Positions 9,087 to 23,361 of a stretch of 23,888 bases of DNA are shown in pieces. Source of the DNA: a virus. The stretch is from the IMG/VR virus record IMGVR_UViG_3300004807_000126, positions 1 through 23,888 of that record; one strand, 5' to 3'. Below the pieces are notes generated by a model. That model had not been told where the DNA came from and ran no database searches. It saw only the letters and a program-made list of their open reading frames with translations. The stretch's first letter is position 1; every line of letters begins with the position of its first letter. Both the position numbers and the translations under genes were made by a program.

Positions 9087-9407
9087 ATGGATCTACTTAA
9101 AATCAAATATTGGACTCAAAAAGCATGTGCAAAACGCAGAAATATTTCTTTCAAATTAACATTCAATGAATGGTGGGATATTTGGCAACAATCAGGCAAA
9201 TGGAATGAACGAGGATGCAAAAAAGGACAATATGTTATGAGTAGATATAATGATACTGGTGCATATGAAATAGGAAATGTTTTTATTCAACAACATGGAA
9301 TTAATATATCACAAGCACAGCAAGGAAGAACCCGAACTGACTTTAGTATTATTATGAAAAATAAATGGAATTCGTTTAGAGTCCAAAAACAATTACAGGA
9401 GATTTAA
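9087..9407 (+). CDS. Homing-endonuclease-like small protein (paralogue of 22927 gene)
   Basis: A 106-residue basic protein. It aligns along residues 1-75 with the protein at 22927-23361: both carry R-x-I-S-F-x-L-T-F, then W-x-x-I-W-Q-x-S-G-K-W, R-G, K-G-x-Y-V-M-S-R, D-x-G-x-Y and N-V-x-I. After this the paralogue has a NUMOD3-like stretch and a zinc finger, which are missing here, so this copy looks truncated or is a minimal form. The fold and catalytic residues are not clear; the link to selfish endonucleases comes from the paralogue. It lies between the tip gene and the first fibre pair, a typical insertion spot for a mobile gene. The next gene follows after one base. Confidence 0.6.
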   Translation: MDLLKIKYWTQKACAKRRNISFKLTFNEWWDIWQQSGKWNERGCKKGQYVMSRYNDTGAYEIGNVFIQQHGINISQAQQGRTRTDFSIIMKNKWNSFRVQKQLQEI

Positions 9408-9408
9408 G

Positions 9409-9918
9409 GTGAGTTTACTATTAAACGGCGCAAAAACAGTTACAATTGCAGGTACAGTAATGCAATGTGTAGAAATATACACAGGTGAAGCATATACTAT
9501 GCCATTCAGTTTTACTGATAGTACAGGTAATGCTGTAAACTGCAATGGTTGGACATTAGGTACTAGTGCCAAATTTTATACTGCTGATAATATAAATTAT
9601 AGTATTAGTAACAATTCAATAATAATTGGTAATTTAACATTAGATACACCTCAACCAAGTACTGGATCTGGAACATATAGTGCTAATTTAACTGCAACAT
9701 TTACATCAGCAAACACAGGCGTTGGATATTTATATGTACCAAGTAATTTAACAGGTGGAACAGGTAGTCCAAACGCTACTCCTGTAATTACATTAGCAAA
9801 TAGTACAGCAAATACTCATATTGTTGTTGTTTCCATGAGTGTTACAAGAACAGATCCTATTAGTTCAAAACAAGATATTAGCAGAGAGCCAATCGGTATC
9901 ATTGTAAGGTATCAATAA
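9409..9918 (+). CDS. Fibre-associated beta-rich protein (BppU N-terminus-like)
   Basis: A 169-residue protein starting with GTG, supported by an AGGAG ribosome site at 9396-9400 with about 8 bases spacing; no ATG competes nearby. The N-terminal half (EIYTGEAYTMPFSFTDSTGN, then CNGWTLGTSAKFYT) follows the pattern of small Ig-like domains that begin phage baseplate upper or fibre-connector proteins. The C-terminal half is Thr/Asn-rich. It ends in a TAATG overlap with a long fibre gene, so a role as connector or adaptor of that fibre is likely but inferred. Confidence 0.55.
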   Translation: MSLLLNGAKTVTIAGTVMQCVEIYTGEAYTMPFSFTDSTGNAVNCNGWTLGTSAKFYTADNINYSISNNSIIIGNLTLDTPQPSTGSGTYSANLTATFTSANTGVGYLYVPSNLTGGTGSPNATPVITLANSTANTHIVVVSMSVTRTDPISSKQDISREPIGIIVRYQ

Positions 9919-11342
9919 TGAGCGATATTAACTTAAATTTTACTGTACCTAATAATAACATTAATTTTACGGTACAGCCTAATGATATTATTATTACACA
10001 AACGCCAATAGAATTAGCGTTTTATCCTCCTCCAACAAGTCAATTAACAGCAACATCATTAAATGCCAATATTACTAATGTACACATTAGTGGTGGAATT
10101 AATGGATATGTATTACAAACTGATGGTAGAGGAAACTTAAATTGGACTGCACAAACAGGTGGAGGTGGCGGAGGTAATGGCACTCCTGGTGGTAGTAATA
10201 CTGACGTTCAATTTAATGATGCAGGTAGTTTTGGAGGTAACGTAGGTTTTACATTTAATAAGGTAACTGGAGACTTAAATGTACCAGGTAACATTATTGG
10301 TAATATAGCCAATGCTAATTATGCTAACTTTGCAGGTTCAGCAATAAGCGCAGATACAGCAACATATGCAAATGATGCAGGTAATGCCAATATTGCCAAT
10401 ATTGCCAATATTGCCAATACTGCTAACCTAGCCACATATGCTACAACAGCAAATAGTGTAGCAGGTGCAAATGTTAGTGGTCAAGTAGGTAACGCTTTAA
10501 TTTCTAGTACAGTATATTCAAATGCTCAACCAAATATTACTAGTGTTGGTACATTAACATCTCTTGATGTTACAGGCAATTTAAGTGCTGGTAATTTTAA
10601 TATTGGTGGATTACATGCAAGTGCGCTTTATCTTAATAGTCCAGGCGGATATATATTTTTTAATGCTGGTACAATTGCTATTAATAGTGGTAATAGTGGA
10701 TATTTAAGTAATAGTCAAGTATTGATTAACAGTGGTAATGTTGGAAATAATCCATATTCTATTAGTATAGGTACATTTTCATATAGTGCAAATGTACAAA
10801 CATATGGCATACAAATGGGTTTGGAAGCAACAGCCAATGCAAATTCAATTGCAATTGGAGCACATTCAGGATCAGGTAGAGCCCTTCGTGGAGTATTTTT
10901 AGGTAATAGTGCCATAAACAATAATGGACAAAATTTTGTTCAAGGAACTATTGCTATTGGTGATACTTCTGGTGGTAATATTGGTGGTGATGGTATTGTA
11001 ATTGGACATAATACTTTAGGTAATCACTTAGATAATTCTATTGCAATTGGTGCCAACGCAGGTATTAACCAAAATTATAGTGCTATAGCGTTAGGTGCAT
11101 ATGCCGCATATGGTAATGCAGGTGCTAATACTCAAGGTGCAAATTCAATTGCAATTGGATACTCAGCAGGTTATACTATTGCACATGCAAATACTATTAT
11201 TTTTAATGCAACTGGTAGTGATTTAAGTTCTACTCAAGCCGATAGTTTGTTTGTAAAACCAATACGTGACGTAACAGGAAATTCTTCATTTACAAAAACA
11301 TTAAAATATAATCCAACAACAGGCGAAATTGGTTTTATCTAA
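9918..11342 (+). CDS. Tail fibre 1 with YadA-head-like repeats
   Basis: A 474-residue fibre protein. Gly-rich linker GGGGGGNGTPGGSNTDVQFN lies around residues 79-98. Then come Asn/Ala repeats (NIANIANIAN near 156-168, ANSVAGANVSG, QPNITSVGTLTSLDVTGNL) of the type seen in aquatic phage fibres. Residues about 310-420 contain repeats such as SIAIGAHSG, GTIAIGDTSG, SIAIGANAG, AIALGAYAA and SIAIGYSAG, the 'S-x-A-x-G-x-x-A' signature of trimeric YadA-like left-handed beta-roll heads. The end (LFVKPIRDVTGN, YNPTTGEIGFI) looks like a fibre terminal domain. It is probably a homotrimer and a candidate receptor-binding fibre. Confidence 0.78.
   Translation: MSDINLNFTVPNNNINFTVQPNDIIITQTPIELAFYPPPTSQLTATSLNANITNVHISGGINGYVLQTDGRGNLNWTAQTGGGGGGNGTPGGSNTDVQFNDAGSFGGNVGFTFNKVTGDLNVPGNIIGNIANANYANFAGSAISADTATYANDAGNANIANIANIANTANLATYATTANSVAGANVSGQVGNALISSTVYSNAQPNITSVGTLTSLDVTGNLSAGNFNIGGLHASALYLNSPGGYIFFNAGTIAINSGNSGYLSNSQVLINSGNVGNNPYSISIGTFSYSANVQTYGIQMGLEATANANSIAIGAHSGSGRALRGVFLGNSAINNNGQNFVQGTIAIGDTSGGNIGGDGIVIGHNTLGNHLDNSIAIGANAGINQNYSAIALGAYAAYGNAGANTQGANSIAIGYSAGYTIAHANTIIFNATGSDLSSTQADSLFVKPIRDVTGNSSFTKTLKYNPTTGEIGFI
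10386..10421 (+). repeat. 9-base tandem repeat in tail fibre 1
   Basis: Three exact copies of GCCAATATT plus a fourth ending ACT, in frame, encoding repeated Ala-Asn-Ile. Slippage would change the fibre by three-residue steps without breaking the frame. Confidence 0.9.
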
Positions 11343-11426: not shown

Positions 11427-12191
11427 ATGGCAAGATTTACACAGGCTACTTTGAATCAAGTGGCGGGCTTTGACGCACAAGTATTAGCACAGAACCTAAT
11501 ATACAACCAAAAAGACTTTTGGAATTTCAATTGGTCAACAATTGTTAGTTATGCAGGTGGATGGACAGCAAACACAATACCTGTTGACTTAACTGGTGCC
11601 ACAATCGATGCTCAAATCATACGCAGAGCAATTACAAACTTTAGTGATAGCAGAACAGGATATGATTTTCAAATCAATGATTATCCACTAGTATCACAAG
11701 TTGCTGTAGTATCACAAACATCAAGTAGCGACAATACATTTACATGCGATACAACAGCATTGTTATATACAGGTAAGCCAATACAATTCACAGGTGCTGT
11801 GTTTGGTGGTGTAGCAATCAACACAACATATTATGTAAAAACAATAGTTACAAACACAACATTTACCATATCAACAACCAGTGGTGGTGCTACTTTTACG
11901 CCAACAACAGGTACAGGTACTATGGTTGCTAACACAATCAAGCCCACTCCAGTTACATTACCAATTACAAATCGTCAAGACACTAAAGGTACGTTTACCA
12001 TGACTATTGACGATGCAACATGGGGTATCATTGCAGGTGATCCAGACTTAAATATCAATGCAACTGATCCAGCATGTTATACAGGTCGTATAAAAATCAG
12101 TTTTCCTGCAATAGGCAGTCAACCTGCATATGACGAAGCAGTATTTTTACTATTCTTGGTAAATAGTGATGGAGTTGTAAATTATGGCTAA
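11427..12191 (+). CDS. Fibre-associated protein with inserted beta module
   Basis: A 254-residue protein with an AAAGGA ribosome site. The segment IPVDLTGATIDAQIIRRAI (about 51-69) is typical of Ig-like N-terminal domains of baseplate/fibre connector proteins. Residues about 96-170 look like an insertion: DNTFTCDTTALLYTGKPIQF, FGGVAINTTYYVKTI and TFTISTTSGG, a module recurrent in phage structural proteins. The flanks then resume with ITNRQDTKGTFTMTIDDATW and a closing domain. It overlaps the next fibre gene by 8 bases and repeats the 'short beta protein plus long fibre' layout of 9409-11342, which suggests an adaptor role. Confidence 0.55.
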   Translation: MARFTQATLNQVAGFDAQVLAQNLIYNQKDFWNFNWSTIVSYAGGWTANTIPVDLTGATIDAQIIRRAITNFSDSRTGYDFQINDYPLVSQVAVVSQTSSSDNTFTCDTTALLYTGKPIQFTGAVFGGVAINTTYYVKTIVTNTTFTISTTSGGATFTPTTGTGTMVANTIKPTPVTLPITNRQDTKGTFTMTIDDATWGIIAGDPDLNINATDPACYTGRIKISFPAIGSQPAYDEAVFLLFLVNSDGVVNYG

Positions 12192-14922
12192 TCAAGTAAT
12201 TGTTACAAAAGACCATACTGTACAAATTAGTGTTGAACCAACACCCCAAGTACAAGTAAGTTATAGTCGTGCAGCCATTTCAACAGTAACCAATGTAGAA
12301 ACTGCCAATTATGCAAATTTTGCAGGCAATGTTGTTAACAGTAATCAACCAAACATTACAAACGTTGGTACATTAGGTAATCTTACTGTAAGTAGCAATG
12401 CAACAATTGGTAATTTACAAGTTCTTGGTAATTTGCAAGTTGGTAATTTGTTTGCCAATAATGCTAACTATGCAAACTTTGCAGGTCAAGCATTCAATGT
12501 CAATGCTGCCAATATCACGGGTACTGTTGCAAATTCAAATTATAGTGCATATGCAGGTCAAGCAAATACTGCTAACCTAGCAACGTTTGCAACTACAGCA
12601 AATACTGTAGCAGGTGCTAATGTAACAGGTGTAGTTGGTAACGCTAATCATGCAAGTTATGCTAATTTAGCCAATACAGCAAACAGCGTAAATGTATCAA
12701 ACGTAGTTGGTATTGGTAACATTGCAACTACAAACTATGATGGTAATGCAAATCATGTGTTATATGGTAATGGTGGTTTTTATGCTTTGCCAACAATCAG
12801 TAACGTAGCCAATGCTAATTATGCAAACTTTGCTGGACAAGTAGTTAATAATACACAAAGCAATATAACAACAGTTGGTACATTGACAAATGTTAATACC
12901 AGTGGTGGTTTATCATTTACACAAAACAATGCATTAATATATACTAGTGGTACAGTATTGAATATTACTTCTAATAACCTAAATGATGTAACAGGTGTGT
13001 ATTTAGATAGTGCAACTGATGCGGCATTGTATGCATATAATAATGTTGTTATACAATCAAATAGTTCAGGTACAACGCATGATTGGACTTTTGGTGTTGA
13101 TGGTAATTTGTCAACACCAGGTAACATTGGTATGGGTGGTGGTGTTATTCGTGACTTAAACAATAGTGGTTTAGAATTAAGTTCAAGTAATCGTGTAACA
13201 ATGAATCATGATGATGTTGACCAAGTAACTGCAAGTAGTAGTGGTATTGATGCAATTACCAGAGAAGGTAATGTAACACTACAAACTTATTATAATAATT
13301 ATATTTGGAACTTTGATAATACAGGTAACACACAATTTCCAGCAAACTCAATTGGTAATTTAGGTTATGTTGTCAATGCCAATTATTTTGTTGGTGATGG
13401 TAGTAATTTAAGCAATATCACAGCAGGTAATATCAGTGGTACAGTTGCCAATGCAAATTATAGTTTATATTCAAATATAGCAAACACAGCCAATTTAGCG
13501 ACTTTTGCAACTACAGCCAACTCGGTAGCAGGTGCTAACGTATCAGGACAAGTAGCGAACGCTAACTACGCCTTATATTCGAATATTGCAAATAGTGCAA
13601 ACTCAGTAGCAGGTGCCAATGTAAGTGGTACTGTTGCTAATGCCAATTATTCGGCATTTAGTAATGTTGCAAATACAGCCAATAGTGTAGCAGGTGCCAA
13701 TGTAAGTGGTACTGTTGCTAATGCCAATTATTCGGCATTTAGTAATGTTGCAAATAGTGCAAACTCAGTAGCAGGTAGTAATGTAAGTGGTACTGTTGCT
13801 AATGCAAATTATGCGGCATATGCAGGTAATGTAACTATTGCAAGTCAAGGTAATATTACAACTGTTGGTAATTTATTAACATTAAATGTTATCAATGCAA
13901 CAAGCAACAGCACACAATTTTTGTTTAGTCCAAATGGAACTAACGTAGGTGTTGCAGGTCAAAACACAGCAAGTTTTATTATCAATCAATTTACCACACA
14001 AGGTGGTGTTGGTAATCAAGTACTAAACATGCAATTTAATGCGGCACGTGGTAACATAACCAATCCAGCAAACGTTGCAAACTCAGATTATATTGGTAGT
14101 ATGAGTTGGAACTCATACAATGGTAACACATATGTAAGAAATGCACGTATTACTGTACTTGCACCACAAGGCGGTGATTCATCATTATCAAATGCAAACG
14201 TTGCATGGAGTGCAGGTAGTTTCTTTATTAACACAGGTAATCCATTTGGTAATGTAACAAGTAACACAGCAAGTAGTTCACAAAACATATTGCAATTTAA
14301 TAGATATGGTTCATTGTTAGTAAATCCAGGTGCACCAGGACCAAACGCGGCTGCACAAACTTCATTGACATTAATTAGTTATGGTGCAAATACTGATGGT
14401 GCAGGTAGTGTAACTAATCGTATATTATTTCAACGTGCTAGAGGCAATCGTGATAGCAATCAATCAGTACAAAATGGTGATGGCATAGGTGGTTTTTATG
14501 CTCAAGCATATGGTAATGGTGCTTTTAGTACTGTTGGTGGTGCTAGTATGTATGTACAAGTTGATACTACATTTGGTAACATAACAGCAAACTTTGTACC
14601 AATGGTAATGGCCTTTACTGTGGGATCAAGCAATGGTACTCAATATACTACAAGTTTTAGACCTGATGGTAATATATTATTCCCAGGTGGTAATAGTACA
14701 CTTTTAGTTAATAGTTTGAACATAGGTGCAGTTGGTGGTAACAATCCTTTATTAAAAGTATCAGGATATACAGCAGCCAATTTACGTGCTATTACAGGTA
14801 GCGTTGGACAAATGGCAGCAGTTTTTGACAGTTCTCAAGGATCCAATCCAAATGGCATGATAGCATTTTGGGACACAACAAACTCACGATGGAGTTATAT
14901 ACACGATAATAGTGCGGTGTAA
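12184..14922 (+). CDS. Tail fibre 2, long repetitive fibre
   Basis: A 912-residue fibre. Residues about 35-200 and 430-560 are built from Asn/Ala repeats (NANYANFAG, QPNITNVGTLGNL, TANLATFATTANSVAGANVS) that also occur in tail fibre 1. A 27-residue unit (VAGANVSGTVANANYSAFSN and 7 more) is repeated four times from about residue 448, encoded by 81-base DNA repeats. The second half is a non-repetitive Gly/Asn-rich beta region. The end (LRAITGSVGQMAAVFDSSQG, then NPNGMIAFWDTTNSRWSYIH) looks like a conserved fibre tip. The protein is probably trimeric and exposed at the tail end. It starts inside the end of the preceding gene. Confidence 0.8.
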   Translation: MANQVIVTKDHTVQISVEPTPQVQVSYSRAAISTVTNVETANYANFAGNVVNSNQPNITNVGTLGNLTVSSNATIGNLQVLGNLQVGNLFANNANYANFAGQAFNVNAANITGTVANSNYSAYAGQANTANLATFATTANTVAGANVTGVVGNANHASYANLANTANSVNVSNVVGIGNIATTNYDGNANHVLYGNGGFYALPTISNVANANYANFAGQVVNNTQSNITTVGTLTNVNTSGGLSFTQNNALIYTSGTVLNITSNNLNDVTGVYLDSATDAALYAYNNVVIQSNSSGTTHDWTFGVDGNLSTPGNIGMGGGVIRDLNNSGLELSSSNRVTMNHDDVDQVTASSSGIDAITREGNVTLQTYYNNYIWNFDNTGNTQFPANSIGNLGYVVNANYFVGDGSNLSNITAGNISGTVANANYSLYSNIANTANLATFATTANSVAGANVSGQVANANYALYSNIANSANSVAGANVSGTVANANYSAFSNVANTANSVAGANVSGTVANANYSAFSNVANSANSVAGSNVSGTVANANYAAYAGNVTIASQGNITTVGNLLTLNVINATSNSTQFLFSPNGTNVGVAGQNTASFIINQFTTQGGVGNQVLNMQFNAARGNITNPANVANSDYIGSMSWNSYNGNTYVRNARITVLAPQGGDSSLSNANVAWSAGSFFINTGNPFGNVTSNTASSSQNILQFNRYGSLLVNPGAPGPNAAAQTSLTLISYGANTDGAGSVTNRILFQRARGNRDSNQSVQNGDGIGGFYAQAYGNGAFSTVGGASMYVQVDTTFGNITANFVPMVMAFTVGSSNGTQYTTSFRPDGNILFPGGNSTLLVNSLNIGAVGGNNPLLKVSGYTAANLRAITGSVGQMAAVFDSSQGSNPNGMIAFWDTTNSRWSYIHDNSAV
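13525..13848 (+). repeat. Four tandem 81-base repeats in tail fibre 2
   Basis: Units begin at 13525, 13606, 13687 and 13768, each with GTAGCAGGT. The second and third share the first 70 bases exactly; the first and fourth differ at many synonymous sites. The period keeps the frame (27 codons). Confidence 0.93.
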
Positions 14923-14927
14923 GAAAA

Positions 14928-15149
14928 ATGTACATGTTAGAATCAATAATACTATTCATAAAAAGTTTACCCGCGTGGTTAGGACACGTGGTAGAAATAC
15001 TATTTGTTGCAGTTGTATTCATGACCGCAATAACTTTCCTCGCTGGTGTATGGTGTGGATTACGAATAATTGGTCAACGCAGTAAAAGTATTAAAGAAAT
15101 TGGTTTTTTCCCACCAAAAATCATATTTTCAGAAAACGAAAATGAATAA
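14928..15149 (+). CDS. Small single-TM membrane protein, holin candidate
   Basis: A 73-residue protein with a strong hydrophobic segment at about residues 20-46 (VVEILFVAVVFMTAITFLAG), a shorter hydrophobic stretch at 5-18, then a basic linker (RIIGQRSKSIK) and an acidic tail. One or two membrane passes and a charged C-terminus fit a holin or other inner-membrane phage protein. No endolysin is seen next to it, so the lysis role is a guess from topology and from its place after the fibre genes. The start at 14928 has only a weak ribosome site (TAAGAA); a second ATG lies two codons downstream. Confidence 0.55.
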   Translation: MYMLESIILFIKSLPAWLGHVVEILFVAVVFMTAITFLAGVWCGLRIIGQRSKSIKEIGFFPPKIIFSENENE

Positions 15150-15157: not shown

Positions 15158-15250
15158 GTTAGACTGTACATTTTTAGATATTCCTTTTTCTGTTCCTATT
15201 GCATACTTGTGAGCGCCACTCACATGGAACATGTACAGTCTAACCTTTTT
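15158..15250 (+). ncRNA. Nested hairpin leader / terminator before Dps-like gene
   Basis: A perfect 14-bp inverted repeat (GTTAGACTGTACAT 15158-15171, ATGTACAGTCTAAC 15231-15244) encloses two further stems: GTTCC 15192-15196 with GGAAC 15226-15230, and TGTGAG 15208-15213 with CTCACA 15219-15224. The outer stem is followed by CTTTTT (15245-15250). It could end transcription after the 14928 gene, or act as a structured leader or attenuator of the 15262 gene, whose ribosome site AAGAGA follows directly. The function is unknown. Confidence 0.7.
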
Positions 15251-15261
15251 AAGAGAACAAT

Positions 15262-15696
15262 ATGGACAAAATTATAGAAGCAATGAAAATTGTGTTTGCA
15301 ACACATTTTCAGTATTACGTTAAATCACATGGTTATCATGTAAATTTAGTTGGTCCTAATTTTTATCAATATCATAAACTATTACAAAAAGTTTATGTAG
15401 ATGCACAAGAAAACATCGACAAAATGGCAGAAGAAATCAGAACACTTGATGCCATTGTACCATTTAACATGACACGTATTTGCGAATTAAGCGAAATTAG
15501 TGATGCCACAGACACACCAAATGTCATGGTCATGATTAAAGAATTATTAGAAGACACCGAAACATTATGCGAAGTTATCCGCACAGCAAGACAATTGTGT
15601 GAAGATAATAGTTGCTATGGATTAATGAATTACCTAGAAGAACGCCTTGACATACACTATCGTTATCAATGGATGTTGCGTAGTACACTAGAATAA
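15262..15696 (+). CDS. Dps-like ferritin-family protein
   Basis: A 144-residue helical protein. The first half reads as a Dps helix pair: YHVNLVGPNFYQYHKLLQKV, then a helix ending NIDKMAEEIRTL. The four ferroxidase ligands of Dps (E. coli H51, H63, D78, E82) match in identity and exact spacing as H26, H38, D53 and E57. The end (YLEERLDIHYRYQWMLRSTL) fits the last Dps helix. Dps forms 12-mers that oxidise and store iron and protect DNA from peroxide; its ligands lie at the subunit interface. The Trp after the first His in many Dps proteins is Val here, and there is no Lys-rich N-terminal DNA-binding tail. It follows a structured leader and ends in a strong terminator. Confidence 0.85.
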   Translation: MDKIIEAMKIVFATHFQYYVKSHGYHVNLVGPNFYQYHKLLQKVYVDAQENIDKMAEEIRTLDAIVPFNMTRICELSEISDATDTPNVMVMIKELLEDTETLCEVIRTARQLCEDNSCYGLMNYLEERLDIHYRYQWMLRSTLE

Positions 15697-15723
15697 AAAA
15701 AGCCCCAATTAAGGGGCTTTTTT
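15696..15723. terminator. Bidirectional rho-independent terminator
   Basis: An 11-bp stem (AAAAAAGCCCC 15696-15706, GGGGCTTTTTT 15713-15723) with a 6-base loop. The A tract on one side and T tract on the other let it serve both the Dps-like gene (+) and the converging minus-strand island, whose last stop codon (15722-15724) touches it. Confidence 0.92.
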
Positions 15724-15846: not shown

Positions 15847-16035
15847 CTAATCCTCAAGATATGCCTCGATGCGGTCTTGCAAAAGACTTGTAAAAATAGA
15901 CAAGTCATTGCAATAATCAAGAGCCGATTCAGGACTACAATCAATACTACAATCAATTTCATTTGACAAAAGTTGAATGTGTTTGACTATATCGTTAATA
16001 GACATTTTGTCAAGTATAGTTGGTGAATAACTCAT
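15847..16035 (-). CDS. Small hypothetical protein, 62 aa, minus-strand island
   Basis: A 62-residue acidic, probably helical protein. Its start is fixed by AGGAG in the leader shared with two neighbours (ACTAGGAGTTTTTTATG). No family is recognised. It is driven by the consensus-like sigma70 promoter at 16066-16094 and is followed by the lipoprotein gene in the same unit. Overlapping minus-strand frames here lack a ribosome site and are not supported. Confidence 0.7.
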   Translation of the reverse strand: MSYSPTILDKMSINDIVKHIQLLSNEIDCSIDCSPESALDYCNDLSIFTSLLQDRIEAYLED

Positions 16036-16065
16036 AAAAAACTCCTAGTTGTTGAAAGAAAACAT

Positions 16066-16094
16066 AGTATAGCACAGGCCTGATTTATCGTCAA
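16066..16094 (-). promoter_or_regulatory. Sigma70 promoter, cassette A
   Basis: On the minus strand: TTGACG (16094-16089), 17-base spacer, TATACT (16071-16066), with an extended -10 (TGC before it). Inverted arms AGCACAG/CTGTGCT (16071-16077, 16097-16103) flank the -35 and spacer and could be an operator. The leader to the ATG is about 25 bases. Confidence 0.85.
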
Positions 16095-16325: not shown

Positions 16326-16356
16326 AAAAACTCCTAGTTGTTGATTTGATATACGT

Positions 16357-16385
16357 AGTATAGCACAGACTTGATTATTCGTCAA
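16357..16385 (-). promoter_or_regulatory. Sigma70 promoter, cassette B
   Basis: On the minus strand: TTGACG (16385-16380), 17-base spacer, TATACT (16362-16357) with extended -10 TGC. The flanking inverted arms AGCACAGA/TCTGCGCT (16362-16369, 16387-16394) have one mismatch. It is close in sequence to cassette A. Confidence 0.85.
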
Positions 16386-16400
16386 ATCTGCGCTGTTGTA

Positions 16401-16586
16401 TTAATGAGACATATTTTTAGCAATAATTTCAAGTGCATCAGCAATGCGTGTTAATTGCCACTGAATTCCATGAAGTTCATCACCAATACTTTCACCAAAA
16501 CTGTTTTTGTTTGGTGACAATATTGCTTGTTCAATATTGCTAAGTTCGCCTACTACATCTTGTAGTGTGTATTCTGTGTCGCTCAT
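16401..16586 (-). CDS. Small hypothetical protein, 61 aa, minus-strand island
   Basis: A 61-residue acidic helical protein (EYTLQDVVGELSNIEQAIL, then LTRIADALEIIAKN), probably a small coiled coil. The start is set by the shared leader AGGAGTTTTTTATG. No family is recognised. First gene of the minus-strand island, with its own promoter at 16617-16645. The three leaders are near-identical while the proteins they precede are unrelated by eye. Confidence 0.7.
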   Translation of the reverse strand: MSDTEYTLQDVVGELSNIEQAILSPNKNSFGESIGDELHGIQWQLTRIADALEIIAKNMSH

Positions 16587-16616
16587 AAAAAACTCCTAGT
16601 TGTTGAAAGAAAAGAT

Positions 16617-16645
16617 AGTATAGCAAAAAACTGATTTATTGTCTG
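16617..16645 (-). promoter_or_regulatory. Sigma70 promoter, cassette C
   Basis: On the minus strand: CAGACA (16645-16640, four of six -35 bases), 17-base spacer, TATACT (16622-16617) with extended -10 TGC. From the ATG to the -10 it matches cassette A at all but one base. The inverted arms seen in A and B are missing. Confidence 0.7.
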
Positions 16646-17634: not shown

Positions 17635-18474
17635 ATGTGTATAGCCGCAGTAAAATACTTCTACGACATAGGTTGGGTTGGAGTAAAAAATAGAGATAGG
17701 AACTATGTTCCAGAAATCAATTTTGAAATCAATAAACAAGGACCAATTCCCCGACTGTTGTTTCATGACGATTTTACGGGATACATGGAGGGATTAAACG
17801 TCAATGGCATAGGTATATTAGGTACCAGTTTAATGAATGCAGATGATGAGATTGAAATCACAAGACCAAGTACAGATAATCCTGATGGAGAAAAGATAAA
17901 ATCAGCACTAAACGAAAAAACAGTAGAGAAAGTAGCACAGGCATGTATAGATGAGGAACTAACAGGTTGTACATTTATATTTGATATGGAACGTTGTTTT
18001 CTCATAGAGGCATGTATTCGTGACAACAAATACATCTATGACATGGAAGAAATCAAAAAGAATAAACCTACAGCAAGAACAAATCATGGCATATATTTAC
18101 CATGGGCTGGTTATCAAAAAGGCGTAACCAAAAAAGAAGATTTAAGTAGAGAAAGTAGCGAATCAAGACTTAAACAAGCAATGAGTGTATTAAAACTTGC
18201 AAAAACACCGCAAGAATTGATTGATGGTCTTACCATGCAACCAAATCACAAAAACAGTCAAATGAATGCATTACGCATGACACAAGGTGCCAAGAAAATG
18301 CGTACCACAGCGCAAGAAATGATTATACCAATCGAACAAACATTTTACTTACGTCCTGTACAAAGTAAATTGGAAATTGACTTTTGGAAAATAAATCAAG
18401 ACCCTACTCCGTTATGGGTAGAGATATTAAGCAATCGCACATTGTATAAAAAGCCCAAAACAGGCTTAGATTAA
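17635..18474 (+). CDS. Putative Ntn-hydrolase, peptidase C45/C59-like
   Basis: A 279-residue protein. Cys2 directly follows the start Met (MCIAAVKYF), as in Ntn hydrolases whose nucleophile is exposed when Met is removed. Then come a VKNRDRNY segment (about 17-24) like the G-R-N-x-D motif and FTGYMEGLNVNGIGILGTSL (about 46-65). R148-T-N-H151 matches the T-N-H motif of acyl-CoA:6-APA acyltransferase (C45) proteins, and an S-S-E-S-R helix follows. Near the C-terminus, MRTTAQEMIIPIEQTFYLRP fits the 'T..s.i..p....l' strands. Family members cleave or transfer amide-linked acyl groups. The substrate is unknown; acting on a host signal, wall or storage amide is speculation. It has its own AAGGA site and late-type box. 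Confidence 0.68.
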   Translation: MCIAAVKYFYDIGWVGVKNRDRNYVPEINFEINKQGPIPRLLFHDDFTGYMEGLNVNGIGILGTSLMNADDEIEITRPSTDNPDGEKIKSALNEKTVEKVAQACIDEELTGCTFIFDMERCFLIEACIRDNKYIYDMEEIKKNKPTARTNHGIYLPWAGYQKGVTKKEDLSRESSESRLKQAMSVLKLAKTPQELIDGLTMQPNHKNSQMNALRMTQGAKKMRTTAQEMIIPIEQTFYLRPVQSKLEIDFWKINQDPTPLWVEILSNRTLYKKPKTGLD

Positions 18475-20669: not shown

Positions 20670-21011
20670 ATGCAAGAAGCCGCACTATTGAAAAATAATC
20701 AGAAAAAATCAAACGTTGGTGGAAAAAGACCCGGCGCTGGTAGAAAAAAAGGTTCAACACAAAAATTAAGTGGTGTTGAATTATTAGTTGCTATACATAA
20801 GGCAACAGGCAAGCCATTCTCAGACAACGTTGCAGAACACTATCACAGAGCAGTACAAGCAAAAGAATGGAGTGAAGTGCGTGACTATGAAAAGTTTATT
20901 ATTGCCAAAGTAATTAGCGATACAAAAGAAGTTGATATTACAAGCAATGGCGAAACAGTTGGTGCAACATTTACATTTCCTAAAGTAGAATTAAGTGACT
21001 GGAACGAATGA
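20670..21011 (+). CDS. terS: Terminase small subunit
   Basis: A 113-residue protein with the N-terminal motif GGKRPGAGRKKGSTQK (residues about 17-32), the basic G-G-x-R-P-G-A-G-R-x-K-G signature common at the start of phage terminase small subunits. The helices that follow (ELLVAIHKATGKPFSDNVAE, then VRDYEKFIIAKVI) fit the rest of the protein, and the end is acidic. It recognises phage DNA and recruits the large subunit for packaging. It overlaps the large subunit gene by ATGA, as expected for a coupled pair. The start is supported by AGGAAA upstream. Confidence 0.87.
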   Translation: MQEAALLKNNQKKSNVGGKRPGAGRKKGSTQKLSGVELLVAIHKATGKPFSDNVAEHYHRAVQAKEWSEVRDYEKFIIAKVISDTKEVDITSNGETVGATFTFPKVELSDWNE

Positions 21012-22444
21012 GACAAGTCAATGTCCCACTCTATGGCGAACAACAAACTATATTAAATGATTGGCTTAACACAGACAAACATTGTATAGATATTGTTCCT
21101 GTTGGTAGTGGTAAAACATTTTTAGCAAGTATTGCATTGCCTATATTTGCAACCAATGAAGTATTTCACAAAGGTAAGGATATCATTTATAGTGCACCAA
21201 CAGGTGCCATGATTAAATCATTGATTTGGGAACCACTTAAAAAGTCCTGCATAGAATACTTTAACTTAAAAGAAGGTAGCGATATCAACAATAGTGAACT
21301 TACCATTAAGTTTCCAAATGGTGTGTTCATTCGTTGCAAAAGCGCAGAACAGCGTGAGAATTTGCGAGGCTTAAACGTAGGCATGTGGATTGCAGACGAA
21401 GCCGCACTATATACACGTGATACATTACAAGAGATTACCAATCGATTGAGACCTAAAGTTGGTCAGCCTGATACTGCAGGTAGATTGATTGTTATCAGTA
21501 CACCAAATGGTGCAGGTCCTCTTTATGAATTGTTTAACTTAGCCAAAGAAAATCCTGAAAAATATATTGTTAGACATTACAACTACTTGGAAATGCGTAG
21601 TGGTAACTTAAAATTCATTAACGAACAAAAACGCATTATTAGTCCCTTGAAGTTTGGTCAAGACTATATGTGCCAATGGGAAAGTGTAGCAGACATGTTT
21701 TTCTATACATGGGACAAAACAAAATATTGTGATAACGTTAATGATAGAGGTACTGATTTGTACACATTTCAGGATTTTAATAAAAGAGTTATGTGTGCCG
21801 TTGTTGCACAGGTTACCAATCCAGGTGATATCAATGGTAAAATTGAAATCATTAAAAGTTATGCCATACCTGATTGCAGTACAGAAGGTATAGCACAAGC
21901 AATACGACTAGACTTTCCCAAGCGTAGAATCAACAGTATTATTGACATGAGTGGTGGACAAGTTAACCGTGATACCACAAGTGCGTTTGGTGTAACTGAT
22001 AAAACTATTTTAGAAAAATATGGTTTTACAATTGTTAATAATCGTAAAAGCAATCCATTGATTAGTGACACAGACAACACAAGCAATGCGTTTATTGCAA
22101 GAGGTGGATTGATTGTAAAACCTGATGACAAGTTTTTACTAGAGGCATTATCAACATATCACTTTGAAGATGCCACTAGAAAACGTTTGGTAAAGTATAC
22201 CGAACAAAAGTATGCACACATTGACGGTCTTGGTGATTGCATACGTTATGGCATACATCATTTGTTCCCAATAACACATGACAGCATAGGAATGCCTGAG
22301 TACATTGGTATGGATCCAGCATATCAACAAGCATCAATGCCTGGCAGACAATATTTACCTGATAGTCCTCTATATCCAGGTGGACCAAGTTGGGAAGAAA
22401 TCATGAATGGCAATCAAGAACAAGACTATCAAATATGGCAATAA
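21008..22444 (+). CDS. terL: Terminase large subunit
   Basis: A 478-residue packaging ATPase and nuclease. Walker A is V30-P-V-G-S-G-K-T37; Walker B with catalytic acid is V124-G-M-W-I-A-D130-E131; coupling motif S164-T-P-N-G168. The C-terminal RNase H-like nuclease shows candidate metal ligands D256 (TFQDF), D313 (IDMSGG) and D406/D410 (DGLGDCIRYG). The length fits the family. The protein pumps DNA into the prohead through the portal and cuts it. It is co-translated with the small subunit. Two endonuclease-like genes separate it from the portal gene, whereas the two usually adjoin. Confidence 0.96.
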   Translation: MRQVNVPLYGEQQTILNDWLNTDKHCIDIVPVGSGKTFLASIALPIFATNEVFHKGKDIIYSAPTGAMIKSLIWEPLKKSCIEYFNLKEGSDINNSELTIKFPNGVFIRCKSAEQRENLRGLNVGMWIADEAALYTRDTLQEITNRLRPKVGQPDTAGRLIVISTPNGAGPLYELFNLAKENPEKYIVRHYNYLEMRSGNLKFINEQKRIISPLKFGQDYMCQWESVADMFFYTWDKTKYCDNVNDRGTDLYTFQDFNKRVMCAVVAQVTNPGDINGKIEIIKSYAIPDCSTEGIAQAIRLDFPKRRINSIIDMSGGQVNRDTTSAFGVTDKTILEKYGFTIVNNRKSNPLISDTDNTSNAFIARGGLIVKPDDKFLLEALSTYHFEDATRKRLVKYTEQKYAHIDGLGDCIRYGIHHLFPITHDSIGMPEYIGMDPAYQQASMPGRQYLPDSPLYPGGPSWEEIMNGNQEQDYQIWQ

Positions 22445-22455
22445 AGGAATATCAA

Positions 22456-22908
22456 ATGACTAGATATATAGGTGACACAACAAGGTCTATGATTGATAGA
22501 CTTACAGATAAAATAACAATTAACCAAAACACAGATTGTTGGGAATGGCAAGCAGGCAAAAACAATTTAGGTTATGGTTTAATACGTGATGATAAAAAAA
22601 TGCGATTGGCACATCGTGTAAGTTATGAAGAACATATAGGTTCTATACCATACAACATGTGTGTTTGTCATACGTGTGATAATCCTAAGTGTATCAATCC
22701 AAAACACTTATGGTTAGGCACAAGAAAACAAAATGCACAAGACATGATGAAAAAAGGTCGTCATAGGTTATTTGGATGGGTACCAGGTACTCCAGGCGTA
22801 CGTACAGGTGCTAAATTTCATAAACTATATTGCATACATTGCAATAGAGATATAGCAGCCAATACATATGCAAGATTTCATGGGGATAAGTGCAAACTAA
22901 AGCCCTAG
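22456..22908 (+). CDS. HNH homing endonuclease (HNH_3) with C2HC zinc finger
   Basis: A 150-residue protein. Residues 28-102 match the HNH_3 plan: CWEWQAGKNNLGYG, A-H53-R, C71-H72-x-C74, D-N-P-K-C79-I-N81-P-K-H84-L, W-L-G-T-R and Q-N-A-Q-D-M. The zinc-binding cysteines and H72, N81 and H84 are all present, so it should be active. The C-terminus has a second finger, C126-I-H-C129, 12 residues, H142, 3 residues, C146. The start at 22456 is preferred because of AAGGA at 22444-22448; the frame is open further upstream into terminase. It is free-standing, not in an intron, between terminase and portal. Confidence 0.9.
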   Translation: MTRYIGDTTRSMIDRLTDKITINQNTDCWEWQAGKNNLGYGLIRDDKKMRLAHRVSYEEHIGSIPYNMCVCHTCDNPKCINPKHLWLGTRKQNAQDMMKKGRHRLFGWVPGTPGVRTGAKFHKLYCIHCNRDIAANTYARFHGDKCKLKP

Positions 22909-22926: not shown

Positions 22927-23361
22927 ATGAACATATATAAACAGCGATATTTTGAACAAAAACAAGCCGCGAGACAGCGCGGTATTTCATTTGAATTAAC
23001 ATTTGACCAATGGTTTGCAATTTGGCAAGACTCTGGTAAATGGGAATTAAGGGGTAGAGGTAAAGGATCATATGTTATGAGCCGTATAGGCGACGTAGGT
23101 CCTTATGCAATTGATAATGTTTATATTAATAGTCAAGAGCAAAATGCAAGTGAAGGTTCTTCACGTGCTAAATCAGTTGAACATCGTAATGCAATTTCTA
23201 AAGCATTGAATGGAAAAAAGAAAAATTTAGATGCAGTTATAAAAAATGCCCAAGCACAATTGATGAGACCAAAATACATGTGCCAACATTGCGATAAAAC
23301 AATTAGTGGTGCTGGTAATTTGAAACAACATATTGCTAGTAAGCATAAGGAAACACAATGA
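22927..23361 (+). CDS. Endonuclease-like protein with NUMOD3-like and C2H2 zinc finger
   Basis: A 144-residue basic protein. Residues 18-68 carry the conserved block shared with the 9087 protein (GISFELTFDQWFAIWQDSGK, then KGSYVMSRIGDVGPYAIDNV). Residues about 75-107 resemble a NUMOD3 DNA-binding stretch (EHRNAISKALNGKKK). A classic C2H2 finger follows: C119-Q-H-C122, 12 residues, H135, 4 residues, H140. No complete nuclease motif is recognised, so it may be a divergent endonuclease or an associated DNA-binding protein. No ribosome site precedes it; the late-type box lies directly upstream. It overlaps the portal gene by ATGA. Confidence 0.72.
   Translation: MNIYKQRYFEQKQAARQRGISFELTFDQWFAIWQDSGKWELRGRGKGSYVMSRIGDVGPYAIDNVYINSQEQNASEGSSRAKSVEHRNAISKALNGKKKNLDAVIKNAQAQLMRPKYMCQHCDKTISGAGNLKQHIASKHKETQ

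Follow-up and report, generated by a model that had tools for sequence, protein, structure and literature searches.

Can a tailed phage carry a mini-ferritin with a complete iron-oxidizing center and, if so, what would such a protein do during infection? These questions are raised by an open reading frame (ORF) of 144 residues at positions 15262..15696 (+ strand) of IMG/VR virus record IMGVR_UViG_3300004807_000126, which was analyzed here in its entirety (23,888 bases; hereafter the window). The window is evidently a piece of a tailed phage genome, with genes that include a tape-measure protein, tail-fiber-like genes and a terminase large subunit; its right end holds the beginning of a portal gene, judged by likeness to the portal genes of relatives. 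A preliminary description of the ORF proposed a Dps-like ferroxidase with all four iron ligands, encoded in a phage late region as its own unit and able to protect DNA or scavenge iron. Our analysis confirms that the ORF encodes a genuine Dps mini-ferritin and supports the proposal that the phage, within a late region, encodes a Dps whose ferroxidase ligands are all present.

Identification of the phage Dps

Assignment of the ORF as dps, within a viral clade termed 'HVN', draws on Pfam, PHROG and structure matches and on the predicted fold. The protein scores 60.1 bits against Pfam PF00210 (Ferritin; 3e-16), above the curated threshold of 24.5, which places it in the ferritin-like superfamily; it also matches phrog_3636 at 3.7e-25. 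Its best match among solved structures is Dps from Pseudomonas aeruginosa (Pa Dps; PA0962, PDB 8ff9) at 7e-16, with further Dps proteins ranked below, and the alignment to 8ff9 is ungapped, with a constant offset of 11 residues and 28% identity over the whole chain. The H-x11-H-x14-D-x3-E spacing described previously is present in the ORF as H26, H38, D53 and E57, and the 'GPNF' turn corresponds to G31-P32-N33-F34. Such spacing arose by chance in 162 of 200,000 shuffles of the protein (8e-4); among the stop-to-stop frames of the window, it is unique to this ORF. The whole-protein family match is more decisive than the spacing motif alone, and it is this match that settles the Dps identity.

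Because the alignment to 8ff9 is ungapped with a constant offset, H26, H38, D53 and E57 (codons at 15337..15339, 15373..15375, 15418..15420 and 15430..15432, all + strand) equate with Pa Dps H37, H49, D64 and E68, respectively. Crystallography of Pa Dps revealed Fe1 bound by H37, D64 and E68, and Fe2 by H49 and E68 (PMC10002758). An alignment of 46 relatives, the most distant at 35% identity, shows no change in any of the four ligands, which are also kept in all full-length copies among 62 viral loci (about 60 close relatives). A further 119/119 viral Dps ORFs carrying the KxHx[YF]HWN motif, among the matches listed, likewise retain all four.

Structure prediction afforded an AlphaFold monomer model with a mean predicted local distance difference test (pLDDT) score of 94.7 and a predicted template modeling (pTM) score of 0.90 when the 46 relatives were supplied; this model supersedes an initial single-sequence prediction (pLDDT of 44.8). 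Helices span residues 2-28, 34-60, 88-115 and 119-141, with a short helix at 70-76. The model thus predicts a four-helix bundle with the short BC-loop helix typical of Dps and lacks a fifth, C-terminal helix. Searches with the model using Foldseek and VIA-align returned Pa Dps 8ff9 as the top match (1.1 Å, Z 23.3), followed entirely by other Dps structures. The preliminary description had named two outcomes that would speak against a Dps, a fold other than the ferritin bundle and loss of the ligands in close homologues; prediction yielded the four-helix Dps bundle instead, and every full-length viral relative examined keeps the four ligands.

Proposed function in iron and peroxide detoxification

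Ferroxidase ligand chemistry is established for the Dps family, and Fe(II)/peroxide chemistry is likely for the phage protein. We favor, at a probability of about 0.68, a Dps mini-ferritin that oxidizes Fe(II), most likely as a dodecamer, and acts as an iron and peroxide detoxifier late in infection. The predicted dodecamer would contain twelve inter-subunit sites, each combining H26 and H38 from one chain with D53 and E57 from its partner. At these sites Fe(II) would be oxidized, presumably with hydrogen peroxide (or O2), and the ferric product stored. Gene position suggests late expression, with Dps probably made from the structural transcription unit. Free iron and peroxide, the Fenton reagents, would then be removed in the infected cell during replication and packaging of progeny genomes, and the hydroxyl-radical damage thereby limited would presumably benefit the phage.

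Three features weigh against this assignment. V27 (codon at 15340..15342, + strand) occupies the site of the Trp conserved in most Dps (W38 in Pa Dps); in Listeria Dps, the Trp of this position helps trap radicals (PMC10002758). Likewise, the B-type pore residues of Pa Dps, D125, D129, D130 and D134 (PMC10002758), correspond here to E114, C118, Y119 and N123, so that only E114 is acidic, with D115, E126 and E127 as further acids near the pore positions. An acidic three-fold pore of this type is usual in Dps but does not define the family. Given V27 and the changes at reported pore positions, activity could be slower or could depend on another route for iron. Finally, simple detoxification leaves unexplained why dps recurs in packaging modules, as described below.

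At least 90% of the 46 clade members have V immediately after the first ligand; Trp is usual at this site in Dps, though not defining. A DNA pattern for K-x-H-G-[FY]-H-V-N was found in 0/398 genomes of one bacterial phylum, as against 56/398 for the Trp (HWN) form. Tyr19 and Tyr45 are invariant within the clade and could take on part of the radical role of the missing Trp.

A different function, condensation of host or phage DNA as by E. coli Dps, is suggested by the family name and precedent and by the PHROG annotation 'DNA binding protein'. The phage protein is acidic, with an isoelectric point (pI) of 4.98 and a net charge of -9 per chain, and helix A begins at residue 2, leaving no Lys/Arg-rich terminal tail; the tails of a second phage group (group 2, below) are not basic either, and several Dps do not bind DNA (PMC10002758). 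Because the protein is acidic and without a basic tail, we do not expect it to coat DNA or to condense it as E. coli Dps does, and we consider nucleoid compaction very unlikely. The earlier suggestion of DNA protection through binding accordingly finds no support in the sequence.

Pa Dps also raises the prospect of a cage that nicks DNA and so helps to degrade host DNA in infection. That activity was observed in vitro, without assigned residues to map onto the phage protein, and a late non-specific nuclease would endanger progeny DNA, making this role highly improbable. We attach similarly little weight to storage or scavenging of iron for the phage or its next host, including a Ferrojan-horse-like supply of iron in virions. 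Ferritin-type chemistry would suit such a function, and iron in phage particles is debated in the published literature, but the protein has neither a tail or capsid domain nor a receptor-binding feature.

Viral relatives and phylogeny

The terminase large subunit (21008..22444, + strand), recognized by profile matches, served to find relatives of the window and recovered 80 viral loci. A Ferritin-family gene was present in 11/50 of the terminase-relative records, most of the remainder being short fragments. The preliminary description had also proposed looking for the gene in related phage contigs, and a search with the relatives-based Dps alignment located it in 62 viral loci. Single-sequence patterns were too specific and matched nothing in the viral scan, and a less restrictive DNA pattern, suited to Dps of the ordinary kind (KxHx[YF]HWN), matched at least 120 viral contigs. 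Ratios of non-synonymous to synonymous substitution (dN/dS) between close pairs were mostly 0.03-0.15, with dS high in many of those pairs; among the pairs compared, such values indicate purifying selection on dps.

In a tree of 184 sequences, a branch (100/97) separates the Dps of viral contigs from 44/44 sampled bacterial Dps and from two isolate phages, and the window's HVN clade forms one group (100/100). The bacterial Dps were the best matches among those listed, and the tree was built on 146 columns; given this limited bacterial sampling and small number of columns, the tree points to a single viral origin without proving it. The best bacterial matches, among those listed, reach 38% identity, and no Dps relative emerged when about 85,000 species genomes were scanned with the clade patterns for a host origin. 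The viral Dps lineage apart from sampled bacterial Dps is new, as is the subclade in which the conserved Trp has been lost (W to V); this HVN subclade is a variant within known phage Dps.

Gene neighborhood and a possible packaging role

The gene neighborhoods of viral dps bear on a further alternative, in which Dps would serve head assembly or DNA packaging. It might act within or upon the procapsid or the packaging machinery, or travel in the virion, for instance by sequestering iron close to the DNA or by being enclosed together with it. In group 2 (loci L131-L161; e.g. L135:2650-6432), the gene order is terminase, portal, dps, scaffold and major capsid, and in L135 the start of dps overlaps the stop codon of the portal gene. 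A TerS-Dps-TerL arrangement was observed in T4-like contigs (L165, L169, L205, L237 and others; e.g. L237:3307-5757), accounting for 33/97 loci examined. A BFVD fold search additionally lists phage proteins of 290-763 residues with a Dps fold, some annotated 'Prohead protease', which suggests fusions. The recurrent gene position, together with these entries, makes a head or virion role possible.

Other observations argue against it. Portals of pelagiphages HTVC111P, 112P, 202P and 026P and of DSL-LC06 share 40-47% identity with that of L135, and the related pelagiphage isolates hold other genes at the portal-scaffold site, which may therefore be an insertion hotspot. In the group to which the window belongs (L100-L130), dps lies outside the head module, behind tail-fiber genes and, usually, a gene for a small membrane-anchored protein, at a distance of 0-30 nucleotides. 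Many other viral Dps have varied and unrelated neighbors, superoxide dismutase in one case. The suggested fusions are known by annotation and length alone, and none occurs among 119 sampled viral ORFs. Moreover, a shared position may reflect merely late, strong expression. We therefore regard a head or packaging role as unlikely. The broader proposal that a virus-specific Dps lineage was adopted into head assembly and DNA packaging by several unrelated tailed phages, where the cage would act on or travel with the genome and guard it against Fenton damage, likewise seems doubtful. Late iron and peroxide detoxification remains our preferred function. The placement itself is new: in three phage groups (portal-Dps-scaffold, TerS-Dps-TerL and tail fiber-Dps), dps recurs, although not invariably, within late modules of packaging or structural genes.

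Among the 'Prohead protease' entries in BFVD, A0A6J7XDU5, A0A6J7WPK9 and A0A6J7WIS1 (333-763 residues) are possible Dps-protease fusions, going by annotation and length.

Transcription unit and other features of the window

The window dps is preceded by a leader of about 110 nucleotides with a strong hairpin, an inverted repeat with a nested hairpin at 15158..15246 (+ strand; folding energy of -28.2 kcal/mol, z -3.8). A terminator-like site at 15696..15723 (+ strand), an 11-pair stem directly after the stop codon, resembles an intrinsic terminator and would close the rightward late transcription unit; 1 such site was found versus 0.8 expected in shuffles. Genes beyond dps run on the opposite strand in the window and in most relatives, and this arrangement, along with the terminator-like site, points to dps as the final gene of the late unit. 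While the structured leader and the terminator-like site noted previously are both real in the window, the claim that dps stands as its own unit does not extend to close relatives, where the gene starts 0-30 nucleotides after the preceding late gene with no such leader. As a conserved element, the hairpin leader was rejected: it is specific to the window, and its arms occur in no other locus compared. Promoter-like sites in a promoter scan were no more numerous than in shuffles.

Immediately upstream of dps lies a gene for a small membrane protein of 73 residues (14928..15149, + strand), for which lysis can only be guessed at as a role; in most close relatives, too, dps is preceded by a gene for a small membrane-anchored protein. 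Ahead of it is a tail-fiber-like repeat protein (12184..14922, + strand), a neighbor also seen in relatives. This gene contains 81-nucleotide tandem repeats (ANVSGTVANANYS units) that are partly common to the gene at 9918-11342.

Several further observations concern other parts of the window. Upstream elements of 62-66 nucleotides, 82-90% identical, occur at 16031-16092, 16353-16418 and 16582-16643, before three small minus-strand genes; each has a minus-strand -35/-10-like pair, and they are probably repeated early promoters. The gene at 17635-18474 encodes a 279-residue protein that starts M-C-I-A-A-V, contains KNRDRN and by eye resembles N-terminal-Cys hydrolases of the N-terminal nucleophile (Ntn) class, with no Pfam match and no convincing PHROG match. 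The genes at 22390-22908, 22927-23361 and 9087-9407 comprise an HNH endonuclease gene and two small genes related to it, one of which has a C2H2-type zinc finger; situated in the terminase-portal interval and within the tail region, they are likely mobile homing-type elements.

Relation to known Dps proteins and implications

Pa Dps and the window protein have in common the four di-iron ligands, the fold, and the absence of both a C-terminal tail and a basic N-terminus. The window protein differs in being phage-encoded, in the replacement of Trp38 by Val27, and in pore positions 129, 130 and 134 (Pa numbering), which are C, Y and N. All four ligands are likewise common to the Dps of Synechococcus phages S-SRM01 and S-EIVl, Proteus phage Privateer, Aeromonas phage LAh_8 and Salmonella phage 7-11 (checked in four). 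These five isolate-phage proteins are at most 33% identical to the window protein, and none of those examined belongs to the HVN type. Furthermore, dps of Privateer and LAh_8 lies among nucleotide-metabolism genes, whereas the window dps lies among late structural genes.

Dps of 'Gratiaviridae' and other gut phages, and of Lactobacillus phages, has been proposed to raise the oxidative tolerance of the host cell (PMC8008677). The 'Gratiaviridae' and gut phage proteins belong to phages of anaerobic gut hosts, and the accessible text of that paper makes no mention of late packaging modules. Ferritin is named, in one clause of the accessible text, among genes of freshwater phages for defense against reactive oxygen species (ROS; PMC6802176), and these ferritin genes very likely resemble the window dps in general kind and in role. 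We found no ligand, clade or gene-order analysis in the accessible main text of that study. Phage Dps, and ferritin-based ROS defense in freshwater phages, are thus already known, and a single phage Dps is correspondingly less surprising.

Earlier records of phage Dps are scattered and treat it as an auxiliary gene; in the present analysis it takes the form of a large viral lineage whose genes lie among late packaging and structural genes of different phage types. If this position reflects function, oxidative protection at genome packaging would become an aspect of phage biology open to testing. If only the timing of expression lies behind it, control of iron and peroxide would still be a common late need of these phages.
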